From contig NZ_FMBK01000006.1 of NCBI RefSeq assembly GCF_900095025.1, positions 1-64,000 of the forward strand: 64,000 nt of DNA. The letters are read 5' to 3'. Of this stretch, positions 35,200-42,284 are shown in pieces (positions within the stretch are counted from its first letter, which is position 1; each line of letters opens with the position of its first letter). The notes beneath the pieces are model-generated. The model did no database searches. It was not told where the DNA came from and saw only the letters and a program-made list of their open reading frames with translations. This stretch comes from Acinetobacter albensis (GTDB lineage: Bacteria; Pseudomonadota; Gammaproteobacteria; Pseudomonadales; Moraxellaceae). Position numbers and translations under genes: made by a program.

Positions 35200-36189
35200 T
35201 TAAATATTTTTACTGCGATATTTTTTTACGATATGTGCAAGGGGATATGTTTTTCTATCATTAAAGAAATCATCACTGATAAGTTCCATTAATTTTCTTA
35301 CAGCACCGGCCTGATGCCATAGTAGATCTTCATCATGATTATCTATCTCTTTGATAGTTTCATTTTCTATTTGTTTTAGAATGTCTTTATATTGGAAATA
35401 ATTGAGGATCAAATTCTTAAATGAAATATTGTACTTAAGCATTTCCTTTAAAACGCTTCTTGTTTCTTTAATATCAGATTTTCTATCCTCAAATGCATAA
35501 TCTAAAAATGCTTGAAGATTATCTAGATTTAATTCTAAGTTTTCATCAAATTGTTGCTTTCTTTTCGCTTCCTTGATGAGTTGACTTTTGTTTTTAGCAA
35601 TTGCATTCTTAATTTCTTCAAATTTAATATCTGCATCCTCTAGGACAGCACTTATAAAAGAGAATTTTCTACGTAGTTCTTTGGGAATATCCACTTCTGA
35701 TTTATAAGCTAATTTGTGTTCAATTTCAGCCCATGAATGCATTAAAATGGTTCGAACTTGAATTTCAAATTTTAAATCATTGAGTCCTCTGTAGTTAGGG
35801 GTGCTTGTCCAAGAATCTTTAATTGTTGCAATGAAATGAGTAGAACGATATCCAAATTCGGTAGCATTTAATAGTTCTTGTTTAGACTGATTTTCAGTTA
35901 CATCAAACTCTTTTAAAATTATATCTTTAATTTTTTCAATATCATTTTGGAAATAACAAATAATACGAATTCCGCAAATATCCTCAATCTCATTTATTGG
36001 TTTTTCATATCCTTTCCTTTCAATTTTTTCTAAGTAAGATTGTAATTCTTTGACTCGATTTTTTATAGAAAGATAAGGTATATCTTGTTCATTAAGAAAA
36101 ATTTCTAATGACTGTTGGACATTTGAACCTAATTTTTCGTAGTTTGGTTTAAGTTTTTTAAACTCATCTGAGAATTTAGTATTTGACAT
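35200..36189 (-). CDS. Stand-alone RelA/SpoT-type (p)ppGpp synthetase
   Basis: A 329-residue protein with an N-terminal RelA_SpoT synthetase domain (about 25-165) and no HD hydrolase, TGS or ACT domain. Synthetase motifs look intact: R45 and K47 in IKNRVKELQS, D70/G73/R75 in EDICGIRI, the G-loop GYRSTH (113-118) and EIQVRTILMHSWAEIEH (142-158). A helical C-terminal part of about 160 residues is unassigned. Such solitary synthetases are housekeeping SAS enzymes, or toxSAS/CapRel-type toxins that alarm or defend against phage; I cannot decide between these. The DNA is visibly more AT-rich than metG next door, which hints at acquisition. An 8-bp inverted repeat lies upstream. Confidence 0.85.
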   Translation of the reverse strand: MSNTKFSDEFKKLKPNYEKLGSNVQQSLEIFLNEQDIPYLSIKNRVKELQSYLEKIERKGYEKPINEIEDICGIRIICYFQNDIEKIKDIILKEFDVTENQSKQELLNATEFGYRSTHFIATIKDSWTSTPNYRGLNDLKFEIQVRTILMHSWAEIEHKLAYKSEVDIPKELRRKFSFISAVLEDADIKFEEIKNAIAKNKSQLIKEAKRKQQFDENLELNLDNLQAFLDYAFEDRKSDIKETRSVLKEMLKYNISFKNLILNYFQYKDILKQIENETIKEIDNHDEDLLWHQAGAVRKLMELISDDFFNDRKTYPLAHIVKKYRSKNI

Positions 36190-36461: not shown

Positions 36462-38522
36462 TTAAGACACTTTATCACCCGCTTTAGCGCCAGATTCAGG
36501 TGAAATCACCCAAACACCTTCGCCATTGCCCGCAGCGAGCACCATACCGTTTGAAATACCAAAACGCATTTTACGTGGAGCAAGGTTAGCGACCATGACC
36601 ACCAATTTGCCTTTAAGGTCTTCAGGTACGTAGAACTCACGAATACCACTGAATACATTGCGTGGTTCAGCTTCACCGACATTTAAAGTCAATTGAAGCA
36701 ATTTGTCAGAGCCTTCAACGTGAGCCGCATCTAAAACCTCAGCAACACGCAGGTCAACTTTCATAAAATCTTCAATGCCAATAATCTCTGCTTCGCCAAC
36801 TTTAAGTTCAACTTTGGCAGGTGCAGCCTTCTTCTCTTTTTTCTTTTCAACTTTGACAGGTTCAGCCGCAGCTGCTAAAGAGTCTTTAGAAGCATCCACC
36901 ATTGCCGCAACCGCTTTCGGGTCGACACGTTGCATGAGCGGTTGGAACAAAGCAATTTCATGATCAACCAAGGCAGTTTGAGCAGAAGCAAAGTCAAAGC
37001 GGTCTAATTTTAAGAAGTCTTGAACTTGCCCCGCCAAAGTCGGCAACACAGGAGCAAGATAAACCGCCAATTGACGGAAGAGGTTAATCCCCACAGAACA
37101 TACATCATGTACTTGCTGTTCTTCACCTTCAATTTTCGCAAGCGCCCAAGGCTTTTTCTCATCAATGTATTGGTTTGCTTTATCTGCCAATGACATGATT
37201 TCACGAATCGCGGCAGAGAACTCACGCGCTTCATACTGAGATGCAATTGAAGCACTCGCATCAATAAAGCTTTGAACAAGTTCTGGCTCTGCACAAGTTG
37301 CACTTAGCTTATTATCAAACTTAGTATTGATAAATTTGGCACAACGGCTGGCAATATTCACCACTTTACCGACCAAGTCTGAATTCACTTTCTGAACAAA
37401 ATCATCCAAATTCAAATCAGAATCTTCAACTTTATCCGACAGTTTAGAGGCAAAGTAATAACGTAAATATTCAGGGTTTAAATGTTCAAGGTAGGTTTCA
37501 GCTTTAATGAATGTACCACGTGATTTCGACATTTTTTGACCGTTTACAGTCAAGAAACCATTCACGAATAAACCTGATGGCGTACGGTAATTTGCACCTT
37601 CAAGCATTGCAGGCCAGAACAATGCGTGGAAGTAAACGATGTCTTTACCAATGAAGTGATAGACCTCATTTTCAGAATCTTTTTTCCAATAATCATCAAA
37701 GCTTAAGTCTGGACGTTTGGTTTTAATATAGTTTTCAAAACTCGACATATAACCAATTGGCGCATCGACCCAAACGTAGAAATATTTATTTGGCGCATCT
37801 GGAATTTCAAAACCGAAATATGGCGCATCTCGTGAAATATCCCAATCGTTTAAGCCATTTTCAAACCATTCATCCAGCTTGTTGGCAATAGAAACAGGTA
37901 GACGACCTTCATCACGTGTCCATTTCTGTAGATATTCAGCAAAATTTGGAAGTTTAAAGAAGTAATGATCAGACGATTTTTCAATTGGGGTTGCACCACT
38001 TAAAGTCGATTTAGGTTCGATCAACTCAATTGCATTATACGTCGTGCCGCAGACTTCGCAGGCATCGCCGTATTGGTCTTCCGCTTTACATTTCGGGCAG
38101 GTGCCTTTAATAAAACGATCCGATAAAAACATACTTTTTTCAGGATCAAACAATTGCGTCACAGGACGAATGGCAATATTGCCTGCTTCACGGTTTTTGA
38201 TGTAAATCTCAGACGAGCGATTTTTATTTTCTTCACTATTGGTCGAATCGTAATGATCAAAATGTACACCAAAACCGTCAAAATCACGGATATGTTCTTT
38301 TTGCACATTGGCAATTTGTTGTTCTGGTGAAATGCCATTGGCTTCTGCACGAAGCATAATGGCTGTACCGTGAGCATCATCCGCACAGACATAAGTCACG
38401 TCATGTCCCATTGCACGCATGGCACGAACCCAAATATCAGCTTGGATATAACCGAGCAAGTGACCCATATGAATGGGGCCATTGGCGTATGGTAGGGCGT
38501 TGGTGACTAAGATATTACGCAC
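36462..38522 (-). CDS. metG: Methionine--tRNA ligase
   Basis: A 686-residue class I synthetase. It has the HIGH-type motif [14 protein letters not shown] at the N-terminus, a zinc knuckle [18 protein letters not shown] (about 143-160), the KMSKS loop [11 protein letters not shown], the anticodon-binding helices, a Lys/Ala-rich linker (KKKEKKAAP) and a C-terminal EMAP/Trbp111 tRNA-binding domain ([20 protein letters not shown]). The length suits the E. coli type (677). It is single-gene with its own terminator. Confidence 0.96.
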
Positions 38523-38788
38523 GGATATAACTCTCTCATTCGTATTTTATGCAAGGTGGATGATTTTACCTGAGTTAATAGCAAGATGCACAAAGGAATA
38601 GCGGAAATGTGTTCAAAAGATACTTAAAGTCAGTGTGCGTTAATCGGCGTGATTGAGTATTTATAGCCAATTTGAGTAAGATACTGAAAAAGAAAATCAA
38701 GAAAAAATATTTTGCCTAAAAATGCCTAAAGCTATGTGCTGACTTTTATGATCAAACTCTAAAGTAGATTTTAAAACGGACGAATGAG

Positions 38789-39208
38789 ATGTTTAGCCTG
38801 TTACTGGCTATGACCATTATTTTATTTGTTGTATTGTCGATTTGGCTCGGAAATATGAGAGATGAAAATAATTCAAAACAATTGAGACAGAGTCAAAATA
38901 ATGACCATCAAAATTTCCCGTATCTGGCTAAATACGTGTTCTTTTATCAGCGCATGCATTTGAGTGATAGTGGCAATTGGGTAGGGGATTCCTTGAGCTG
39001 AACACACCAAAGCAGTTTCTATTCACGTTGCAACAGCAAGCATATCTAGAACAAAGTGATCAAATTGAATCTATCAAACCAACCATTAAAAATTGCTGGC
39101 AAAGATGTGCGACCTCATAATGATTGGGCAATTTCTGAAAACGAAAAAATGTTATTGAGTGTGTATAAAATTGATTCGTGGAAGCAGCTAAGCTTGAATA
39201 AATGGTAA
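38789..39208 (+). pseudogene. Small membrane-anchored protein gene broken by two frameshifts
   Basis: The first frame gives 70 residues with an N-terminal membrane anchor (MFSLLLAMTIILFVVLSIWL) and stops at 39001. The next frame continues without a stop as ELNTPKQFLFTLQQQAYLEQSDQIESIK... to about 39100. The original frame then resumes as AGKDVRPHNDWAISENEKML...LNKW and stops at 39208. The pieces join end to end with protein-like composition, as expected if one gene of about 138 codons has picked up two compensating indels. I do not recognise the family. The intact first ORF alone could also be a real short protein. Confidence 0.5.
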
Positions 39209-39302
39209 AAGCTTCAAATCTTGAACAGTAAACTTCGTTATAGCAATTTTCTTCTATATTCGCTCGCCAATAATAGGGATAATGGTCTTAAAGAGATAAT
39301 GT

Positions 39303-40127
39303 ATGAGTTATAAGCACATGATCGATGCTGATTTTGAAGATGGTTTTGATGATTTTGAACAAGAAGTCACCCGAATTCCTCAACACGAAAAAGGTAAACA
39401 GCTCGGGCAAAGCATTTTGCAAAATGCGGGTCAATATCTACAATCGATGTCGGCTGCTGAACACAAACATCTCATTCAGATGTTAAAAGGACTTGCAACT
39501 CAGGAGCCATATTTTGAAGTGTTGGCAAATCAGTTAGATCAGCCTGTGGAGAATAAAGTTGCCAATGATGCCTTAAACTTAGTCCATATTTGGACGTTAA
39601 TGAATCAGCATGAAAGCGATGTCGACTCTAATCTTCTGGACGTTATTCAAACAGACTATTTTCAAGTTGAATTACTTGAAGCTTTTGATGCACTTGAAAC
39701 GGGTGAAAATAAAATCCAACGCCGTTTGGTGATTGAGGAAGCATTTAAGCTTTATGATATGCAGTGTTTTGCGGGTTGTGTTCCACTTTTATACGCTCAA
39801 CTGGAAGGATTGCTCACGGATGTGCTGCTTGCAAGGGGTTATTTAACGCAGCATCAAACCAAATTTATTGATGTATATAAAATTGTACCGGGACTTAAAG
39901 GCAATGAAATAAAAAGTTTGTGGCACAAAGCAAAAATTGCCTGTGAATTGAATACTTATTTTTCAGAATTGGCCGCATATAAAATGGATAACAGCTCGAC
40001 TGTAACCATGACACGGCATAATATTCTACATGGTACAGACGTCACGCAGTTTAACCAAGAACGTAGTTTTATCTTGTTTATTTGGTTGTTTTCAGCAATC
40101 AGTTTTATGAGTACAGTTAAAAACTAA
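39303..40127 (+). CDS. Unknown protein with HEPN-like RX4H motif
   Basis: A 274-residue, mostly helical, soluble protein with an acidic N-terminus (DADFEDGFDDFEQE). I do not recognise a named family for the N-terminal half. The C-terminal half has MQCFAGCVPLLYAQLEGLLTDVL followed by R238-HNIL-H243-G, a spacing and sequence that match the RX4-6H catalytic motif of HEPN ribonucleases (the RNxxxHG form). HEPN proteins often act in toxin-antitoxin or abortive-infection systems. No obvious antitoxin or nucleotidyltransferase partner lies next to it. It is 94 bases downstream of the broken gene at 38789. Confidence 0.55.
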   Translation: MSYKHMIDADFEDGFDDFEQEVTRIPQHEKGKQLGQSILQNAGQYLQSMSAAEHKHLIQMLKGLATQEPYFEVLANQLDQPVENKVANDALNLVHIWTLMNQHESDVDSNLLDVIQTDYFQVELLEAFDALETGENKIQRRLVIEEAFKLYDMQCFAGCVPLLYAQLEGLLTDVLLARGYLTQHQTKFIDVYKIVPGLKGNEIKSLWHKAKIACELNTYFSELAAYKMDNSSTVTMTRHNILHGTDVTQFNQERSFILFIWLFSAISFMSTVKN

Positions 40128-40242
40128 TCCAACGAAGACTGAAGTGAAAGCGAGCAGTTCTTGAATTGAACTAGAGGTATTTCACTTAAGTTGATTTTTA
40201 TTTTATATCATTACTCGTTTAGTGGGTCAAAATGAACGACAT

Positions 40243-40437
40243 TTAGAGTTCACGCCACACTTCATTTTGATCTTTAAGTGATACGGTAAAATTAAAGTCT
40301 GAATCATCACATACCAATAAACCAGTCGGCGTTTGCATCAGTACTTTCAAAATTGTACCTTGTTCAAACACTAAAGAAGGACAATTTTCTTTTTCAAGAG
40401 TAATCGGTTTGAGTAACTCAATAACTGTTTTACGCAT
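40243..40437 (-). CDS. Small conserved-looking protein of unknown function
   Basis: A 64-residue acidic soluble protein (MRKTVIELLKPITLEKENC...). It has alternating beta-strand-like segments (GTILKVLMQTPTGLLVCDD, FNFTVSLKD) and may form a small beta-barrel. GGGAAG lies upstream of the ATG at a suitable distance, which supports translation. It stands alone, with an inverted repeat at 40519-40541 upstream. Function unknown. Confidence 0.55.
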   Translation of the reverse strand: MRKTVIELLKPITLEKENCPSLVFEQGTILKVLMQTPTGLLVCDDSDFNFTVSLKDQNEVWREL

Positions 40438-41087
40438 ATTGCTTCCCGTTAGCAGTAGTTCTGATGTCGTGAAATTATAGCATAAGTTGCTATATATTTA
40501 ATCTATTTCAGTTGTTTGCCCAATAAAGGTGCATTATTGGGATAAATGGAAATGCTTCATATACATCAAATAATTTAATCATCATTCTCTTATTTAAAGT
40601 TTCTTTGGCTTAAATGACAAGTATATGGATGTCTTAAATGAGTTTTAAGATTGGTTTAATCAACAGGGATGAATATAGAAAACTACAGAGTTTGAAAACG
40701 CCATCATTGATTTCTTTATAAAGACTAAAGCTTTTATATGGTTGTAGTGTTTTACTCAATATTGGTTTTTTATTTGTAGCCCATTTTTTGTATGTCAGAC
40801 CAGATCTGTATTTTATGCTCATCAAAATAAAGCTGATGCTAAATAGAAAGAAACATAAAGACGATAAGCATGAGGTCAATACATCCCCTTAAACTTTTTG
40901 TCTATTTTAATTTATAAATTTTTGAACAAAGCATTCTAAAAAAACATTTCACAAACAGTCAATATATTGCTACAAAGATGAAAACACGAGAATAATGGCC
41001 AATCCGTTTTAAAGGTTCAAATTTTACTTTTGATCTTTTGAAGCAGGATTCCGTTGCACACTAAAAATAAAGGATCACCCGCCAGTA
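40438..41087. other. Long intergenic region before sbmA
   Basis: About 650 bases. It holds a perfect hairpin, CCCAATAA/TTATTGGG at 40519-40541 with a seven-base loop, some 80-100 bases upstream of the small gene at 40437. It also has a doubtful minus-strand frame at 40634-40879. The rest is AT-rich and without visible structure, and presumably includes the sbmA promoter. Confidence 0.4.
40634..40879 (-). CDS. Doubtful small membrane protein (TTG start)
   Basis: An 81-residue frame with a hydrophobic N-terminal segment (LSSLCFFLFSISFILMSIKY) and a Lys/Tyr-rich remainder. It begins with TTG, but AAGGGG lies six bases before it, which is why I list it. The composition could also be that of AT-rich non-coding DNA. 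No family recognised. Confidence 0.25.
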   Translation of the reverse strand: MTSCLSSLCFFLFSISFILMSIKYRSGLTYKKWATNKKPILSKTLQPYKSFSLYKEINDGVFKLCSFLYSSLLIKPILKLI

Positions 41088-42284
41088 ATGTTTAAATCTT
41101 TTTTCCCAAACCCCAAATGGTTCTTTTTATCACTGATACTCTGGTTCGCCTTTAATTTAACGCTTTGGTATACAGGTGGGAATGGATGGGGCACATTTTT
41201 AGGTTTTGCTGAAAATTATCATAAAGCAGAATTACCTATTGGTGTTAGTCGCTTTTGGACACCTGCATTTTTATGGTTTTATTTATGGTTCTTGGTTTCT
41301 ACCGTCATTTTTGCATTATTTTGGCGTTTTAAATCGGATCATCCTTGGCAGAAATGGTCCGTATGGGGTTCGGCTTTTATTTTATTTAATATTTGGTTTT
41401 CTGTTCAGGTGAATGTGGTTGTAAATGCATGGTATAACCCATTTTATGACCTCATTCAAAAAATGTTAAGCAGTGGTGGGGGAGATGTTAACGATTTATA
41501 TCAAGGCGTTATGACCTTTTTATATGTTGCAATGGTCTATGTCACGATTGCGGTCTTTAATTTATTCTTTGTGAGTCATTATGTGTTCCGTTGGCGTACT
41601 GCCATGAATGATTACTATACAGCTCATTGGGAGCAGTTGCGTCATATTGAGGGTGCTTCACAGCGTATTCAAGAAGACACCATGCGCTTTGCCAAAACCA
41701 TGGAAAGTTTAGGGGTGAGTTTGGTGGAAGCACTGATGACCTTGTTGGCATTTTTACCTGTTTTGTTTGCGCTTTCTGTGCATGTAAAAGAAATTCCTGT
41801 TTTTGGTGAAATTCCTTATGCTCTGGTTTGGGCCGCAGTCGGTTGGGCACTTCTGGGTACATTCATTTTAATGTTGGTCGGCTATAAACTGCCCGGTTTA
41901 GAGTTTAATAACCAAAAAGTTGAAGCCGCTTATCGTAAAGAATTGGTCTATGGTGAGGATTATGCAGATCGAGCAGATCCCTTAACCCTGAATGAGTTGT
42001 TTAGCAAAGTTCGATTTAATTATTTTCGCTTATATTTCCATTATGCCTATTTTAATTTAGTGCGTATTTGGTATATGCAATTGGATAATTTATACGGTCT
42101 GTTTGTGCTTTTTCCAAGTATTGCTGCGGGCGCAATTACGTTGGGTTTAATGATGCAGATTAGTAATGTTTTTGGCAAAGTACGTGAATCTTTTCAGTAT
42201 TTAATTGCTTCATGGCCGACGATTATTGAACTACTTTCTATTTATAAGCGTTTGCGTGCATTCGAATCGACTTTAGATCCCTAA
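41088..42284 (+). CDS. sbmA: Peptide antibiotic transporter SbmA
   Basis: A 398-residue inner-membrane protein of the SbmA/BacA family, which imports proline-rich peptides, microcins and bleomycin using the proton gradient. The N-terminus [15 protein letters not shown] closely follows E. coli SbmA. About seven to eight hydrophobic helices are visible, with the ABC-transporter-like [34 protein letters not shown] block (about 165-200) typical of the family. No ATPase domain is present, as expected for SbmA. The length is close to E. coli (406). Confidence 0.92.

Follow-up and report, generated by a model that had tools for sequence, protein, structure and literature searches.

The window analysed here is the whole stretch of 64,000 nucleotides at the start of the Acinetobacter albensis contig NZ_FMBK01000006.1. 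A gene divergent from metG was found in this window, with the following features at the locus.

36462..38522, minus strand: metG, the divergent neighbour (context)
39278..39283, plus strand: conserved −10-like GATAAT, 40 bases before M6
39303..40127, plus strand: coding sequence, 274 amino acids from the first ATG; the probable real start is M6 at 39318 (269 amino acids)
39318..39377, plus strand: N-terminal acidic tail, residues 6-25, with VTRI at its end
39402..39692, plus strand: helical N-terminal half (residues 34-130), a proposed sensor/control part
39693..40124, plus strand: HEPN-like domain, residues 131-274, as indicated by the model and fold matches
39804..39806, plus strand: E168, conserved acidic residue of helix 2, present in 51 of 51 rows
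39837..39917, plus strand: helix 2-3 insert, residues 179-205, mean pairwise identity 0.83
40014..40034, plus strand: R238-HNIL-H243-G244, the RX4H motif that closes helix 3, predicted to be catalytic

The first ATG (39303) overlaps a GAGT sequence, and GAGT precedes M6 in most relatives. Since M6 is also kept in all 51 Acinetobacter orthologue rows, the start is probably M6. Counted from the start to I25, the acidic tail has a mean net charge of −4.7 (range −8 to −2 in the 51 rows); the plasmid relatives P0002 and P0003 show no such tail. Of the 51 sequences, 37 have a GATAAT in the 120 bases before the start, against 4.1 expected from shuffles, and in these 37 its position is nearly always −38 to −44. 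It belongs to a conserved upstream pattern, ATATT...cAATAACAG.GATAAT. Conserved alignment columns number 76 of 297 upstream of the gene and 8 of 658 in the 300 bases downstream. Thus, the GATAAT element and the conserved upstream but unconserved downstream stretch show that the HEPN-like gene has its own promoter.

The gene had been described from the sequence as alone beside metG. It does stand alone, but a frame-shifted remnant (approximately 38653-39175) separates it from metG. This remnant (plus strand) is a broken copy of a protein of 190-236 amino acids, with tblastn pieces in frames 2 and 3; the protein is intact beside metG elsewhere (12 intact ORFs in 11 Acinetobacter genomes). Behind metG, a minus-strand gene (35200-36189) encodes a RelA/SpoT-domain protein (PF04607, E 4.5e-27). 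It has no match in the flanks of 50 related loci and is thus taken as a local insertion.

The sequence-only reading had proposed a HEPN RNase-like motif, R238-HNIL-H243-G, which is indeed present in the 274-residue protein (R238 codon, 40014-40016; H243 codon, 40029-40031). An RX4-6H pair can easily arise by chance, since shuffles of the protein hold a mean of 0.67 such pairs and 49% of them hold at least one; the stricter pattern R[NHD]x3HG is seen in just 0.12%. The R238/H243 pair is kept in 51 of 51 orthologue rows, while the only other RX4-6H pair, R178/H184, is found in one of the 51. Thus, the conservation indicates that the RX4H motif is real. R238, H239, N240, H243, G244, and E168 are invariant in 30 loci, in the alignment of 28 of them (two were omitted due to an upstream stop inside the matched range), and in the 51-row alignment. 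A selected alignment of 12 rows, which adds two Acinetobacter plasmid proteins and one Pseudoalteromonas piscicida protein, leaves E53, A87, F120, G158, E168, G169, T172, L206, D229, R238, L242, H243, G244, R254, and W261 invariant. In a 13-row alignment of four orthologues and nine divergent relatives (including the L082 protein, plasmid proteins of Cupriavidus, Xanthomonas, Planococcus, and Cytobacillus, and phi3T_86), only R140, A147, Q166, G169, R238, H243, and G244 are invariant. The residue after the arginine is H or N in all 13 rows. HEPN RNases are described as carrying RX4-6H with a polar residue (N, D, or H) following the arginine (PMC3710099).

It had also been noted that the motif follows a hydrophobic helix with a glutamate. 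The helix (residues 156-177) and its glutamate (E168) exist, but they lie 70 residues before the motif rather than directly preceding it. E168 is a glutamate in every orthologue row and, in the 13-row alignment, a glutamate in 10 and an aspartate in three. The acidic residue of HEPN domains is typically, though not universally, found within Ex3[KR] (PMC3710099); this pattern is absent here, where the sequence is E168-GLL-T172 and T172 is invariant in orthologues. Pairwise identity is highest (0.83) in residues 179-205 and 237-246 and lowest (0.46) in residues 29-66, with means of 0.46-0.59 across residues 29-130. From the helix 2-3 insert up to and including the motif, the protein is at its most conserved.

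A second AlphaFold2 model, built from the window protein and 50 relatives, has a mean pLDDT of 77.3 and a pTM of 0.78. Residues 1-33 are predicted to be unstructured (pLDDT below 50), and the N-terminal half is modelled as helices 34-48, 51-64, 70-78, 88-102, 111-116, and 118-129. The C-terminal part is modelled as a four-helix domain (137-152, 156-177, 232-243, and 252-269), in which the insert between the second and third helices forms a beta hairpin (181-184 and 187-190) and short helices. E168 is in the second domain helix, and R238/H243 are at the end of the third, before helix 252-269, where the pLDDT is moderate (59 for the block 231-240 and 74 for 241-250). A motif ending helix 3 together with an acidic residue in helix 2 is the described HEPN layout (PMC3710099). 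With the second model, HEPN RNases fill the seven top rows of VIA-align, namely Csm6 (Z 9.1 and 7.7), RnlA (6.8-6.5), and LsoA (6.1); fumarase-type and unrelated helical bundles come next, at Z 5.7 and less, and by the tool's own guidance a Z below 13 for helical bundles may reflect no more than a common arrangement, so values of this size are not decisive. Csm6, RnlA, and LsoA are present in the list of the first model as well. The Roquin ROQ domain, whose structures I take to contain a HEPN domain, topped the first list (Z 8.8) and was rejected, being absent from the 50 rows of the second model. The fumarase-type bundles, which make up most rows below the HEPN ones in both lists, were set aside as a common helical arrangement. 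With Foldseek, neither the PDB nor the viral structures yielded a match of E 0.001 or lower.

The agreement of the motif, its helix position, and the retrieved folds is good but not final evidence for a HEPN domain. The original HEPN reading stands, with a HEPN-like predicted fold and with R238 and H243 conserved among homologues, and the protein is very probably a HEPN RNase of some kind. A protein of HEPN or another helical fold that binds nucleotides or RNA and does not cut is very unlikely: some HEPN domains are non-catalytic, but such domains tend to lose RX4-6H (PMC3710099), and here it is invariant.

No family of Pfam, NCBIfam, or PADLOC matches the protein, and none credibly matches the 13 divergent-alignment rows. 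In particular, hmmscan against Pfam matched no HEPN family, and PF13910 (DUF4209) gave no match over its cut-off. The PF13910 model does match a P. piscicida protein; a search with it through 200 genomes gave only two matches, which were insufficient for a profile. Several faint matches were judged to be due to chance. These are Pfam Sod_Ni (E 0.16), Hrs_helical (8 of 28 members, best E 0.0014), DUF5436 (6 of 28 members, best E 0.0038), and 22 PHROGs families (best E 0.0029, at most two of 28 members each); these and the remaining Pfam rows for the 28 members were inconsistent among members, fell on the helical N-terminal half, or stayed below the cut-off. Sequence searches of the PDB with the 28-row and 13-row alignments gave just rows at E 0.14 or worse. 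Literature searches showed no paper on this gene among the titles listed. The family is without a model in the three scanned libraries but is of a known kind, the HEPN RNases.

Is the gene mobile in Acinetobacter, as might be expected of a defence gene? A protein search gave matches in 39 of 144 relatives. By profile search, 46 of 109 genomes of the genus carry the gene (about four in ten of the species examined), while metG was found in 108 of the same genomes. In 45 of the 46 carriers, metG is a divergent neighbour at a distance of 171 to 3482 bases; in the remaining one, the gene is on another contig. Likewise, metG is in the flank of 48 of 50 named loci (the exceptions are L071 and L076). 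One locus, L053 (NZ_JADVOP010000070.1), is labelled A. baumannii ACIN00150, and this species label may be wrong. A metG tree with 108 rows places every one of the 46 carriers in a single group of 58 (support 84, drawn open). Presence and absence of the gene need eight changes on this tree, compared with a shuffled mean of 35.3 and with none of 500 shuffles as low; the firmly supported branches force at least four changes. The distribution on the tree suggests that the gene probably entered one large clade a single time and was lost from it several times. No remnant was found by tblastn in the 62 non-carriers, up to 2.5 kb beside metG. Loss can be recent, since one genome with the gene (G058) and one without it (G060) have almost the same metG.

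The median omega is 0.092 for 46 close pairs drawn from 30 sequences (29 of the 50 loci and the window), with 0.146 for the N-terminal half and 0.056 for the C-terminal half. For 56 carrier pairs, it is 0.098, compared with 0.045 for metG in the same pairs. The gene in Acinetobacter is immobile, vertically inherited, slowly evolving, and under purifying selection. A fixed locus and strong purifying selection are unusual for a defence gene.

These traits make a cellular role a serious rival for the chromosomal Acinetobacter form, since the gene is fixed and slowly evolving and its insert 179-205 is nearly frozen, as though matched to one ligand. The protein would then be a housekeeping HEPN RNase whose target is one specific cellular RNA, for instance in translation or stress control, and it would not act against phages. 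The place beside metG, the confinement to one clade with losses, and the low omega, above all in the C-terminal half, fit such a role. However, the several traceless losses imply that the gene is not essential, diverged relatives lie on plasmids, and the adjacency to metG may be accidental. Altogether, a housekeeping role appears possible but rather unlikely. A further scenario is very unlikely, in which a formerly mobile HEPN effector was domesticated in one Acinetobacter clade as a fixed cellular RNase. Its insert would have been fitted to one RNA or ligand, and the acidic, unstructured tail would occupy the basic HEPN cleft in place of RNA, a built-in mimic that keeps the enzyme off until a partner pulls the tail out via VTRI.

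Next to be considered is whether the protein has a partner. In the 50 named loci, no neighbour besides metG recurs widely enough to be one, and the window proteins that recur as neighbours in most of these loci are only metG and its flank. The commonest next gene, which encodes a Lys/Gln-rich protein, is found in 61 of 108 flanks, 23 of these in carriers. Neither an antitoxin nor an adjacent MNT nucleotidyltransferase gene was found in the 50 loci; there is no RnlB antitoxin there, and no small partner ORF recurs beside the gene. The RNA families of Rfam, including RF03085, gave no match in 38400-41200 at E up to 1. HEPN toxins such as HEPN-MNT and RnlAB are common (PMC3710099), and AbiD/F have the neighbouring non-coding RNA RF03085 (PMC12165695). 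One could therefore propose the toxin of a toxin-antitoxin pair, with a neighbouring protein or RNA as the antitoxin. This is highly improbable given the lack of a recurrent neighbour or Rfam match at these loci, the unconserved bases downstream, the RelA/SpoT-domain gene restricted to the window among the loci compared, the slow evolution, and the fixed locus. As regards the suggestion of an abortive-infection-type toxin, the Acinetobacter gene is unlike a typical toxin-antitoxin gene, because it is immobile, vertically inherited, and slowly evolving. The earlier suggestion that its control must be internal fits the loci, since no partner gene recurs in any context seen.

I found diverged relatives in other settings. 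A profile of the 28 loci found no relative beyond its own genome in 293 genomes of the order or 398 of the phylum, and 50,697 phage records gave no match to the Acinetobacter gene. There was also no relative in the viral contigs searched. The protein of a second Acinetobacter locus, L082, which is located on a 3.26-Mb contig, shares residues 139-266 (E 1e-9, in a single comparison) and differs in its N-terminus; it likewise has no further relative in the 398 genomes. The P. piscicida protein was found in one further genome among 312. The plasmid relatives align from residue 36 or 53. The proteins with the pattern Q-x-[ED]-G ... R-[HN]-x3-H-G (L082, L097-L100, and phi3T_86) have the C-terminal domain in common, with seven residues invariant in the 13 rows, while their N-terminal parts differ; they are recorded as unnamed or hypothetical proteins. 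The distant members come from plasmid and phage collections, so their mobile context partly reflects where the searches were made.

The gene stands alone in each of the contexts seen. The pMsp65 relative is separated by one gene from DUF4391, helicase, and DNA-methylase genes, and that of an A. nosocomialis plasmid is near umuD and a DUF192 gene. The P. piscicida relative is beside a caspase-domain gene and a DUF4209 gene, and that of a fourth lineage is between genes resembling bioD and apbE by eye. The P. piscicida cluster (L095, 2604-12828) resembles a defence island. Its long ORFs look site-specific recombinase-like by eye and have no Pfam match at 0.001; a 96-residue ORF looks Cas2-like by eye, a reading that was dropped because it found no support in Pfam. 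The 11-kb Planococcus plasmid pNM11 (L098, 3383-7592) has a HEPN-domain relative and a DUF4145 protein. In the SPbeta-like phage phi3T, phi3T_86 (L217, 3752-4465) is a HEPN-domain relative with R-H-x3-H-G; the arbitrium genes aimR/aimP follow a few genes after it.

Taken together, I somewhat favour the view that the gene encodes a single-gene, self-controlled protective HEPN RNase with an N-terminal sensor half, like Tha, and that its family is an undescribed one; the RNase activity, the dimer, the autoinhibition, and the protective role (in defence or stress) are inferred. The C-terminal half (approximately residues 131-274), a HEPN four-helix domain, would act as a dimer like other HEPN RNases. 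R238 and H243 of each subunit would line a shared cleft, assisted by E168 and the polar H239/N240, and RNA would be cut without metal to give a 2′,3′-cyclic phosphate. The N-terminal helical half (34-130) may hold the enzyme off, with the acidic tail added in Acinetobacter orthologues, until a signal such as a phage component or another stress makes it release the enzyme. One gene would thus comprise both sensor and effector, as in Tha.

Among the effectors of bacterial immunity, HEPN RNases are some of the most widespread, yet nearly every one described so far is either mobile or comes with a partner. The gene described here belongs to a family that Pfam, NCBIfam, and PADLOC do not model, and across a large clade it is kept as one gene at a fixed chromosomal site. 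Since its N-terminal half must hold the control, it offers a compact case of how a one-gene RNase stays off. It also raises a question: can an immune effector turn into the cell's own regulator? The new profile would help to find similar single-gene candidates on plasmids and phages.

How does the protein compare with known systems? It shares the R-N-x3-H-G motif with the DUF4209/C6orf70 HEPN family, and the best viral Foldseek row is a DUF4209 protein, A0A8S5MX66 (E 0.04, probability 0.98). However, it has no Pfam DUF4209 match, and the hhalign probability against one member is 0.2. The HEPN domain of Csm6 is the best fold match (6tug, Z 9.1, 3.1 Å over 133 residues), but no CARF sensor domain was recognised in the protein and no CRISPR context was noted in the loci read. 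The predicted fold of residues 116-273 is also like that of RnlA/LsoA of the RNase LS family (Z 6.8-6.1, rmsd 3.6-4.0 over 116-128 residues). An RX4H site is present in RnlA too, with R318, a mutant of which is a listed entry, and H323. Unlike RnlA/LsoA, the Acinetobacter gene has no adjacent antitoxin gene.

Tha-1 of Staphylococcus phage 80alpha is a protein of 301 amino acids with an unassigned N-terminal part and a C-terminal HEPN domain with R-NSIM-H; it has RNase activity and DALI matches to Csm6 (PMC11087260). Tha follows a single-gene plan, is switched on by phage tail proteins, and is carried on prophages with an inhibitor gene (PMC11087260). The Acinetobacter gene differs in being fixed on the chromosome beside metG instead of lying on a prophage with an inhibitor gene. 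A single BLASTP comparison with the one Tha-1 sequence gave E 0.045, on the motif itself, and the hhalign probability was 1.2, neither of which is significant. The two are alike in being single proteins of similar size with a C-terminal HEPN domain, R-x4-H-G, and Csm6 fold matches, and Tha-1 is the closest known system in design.
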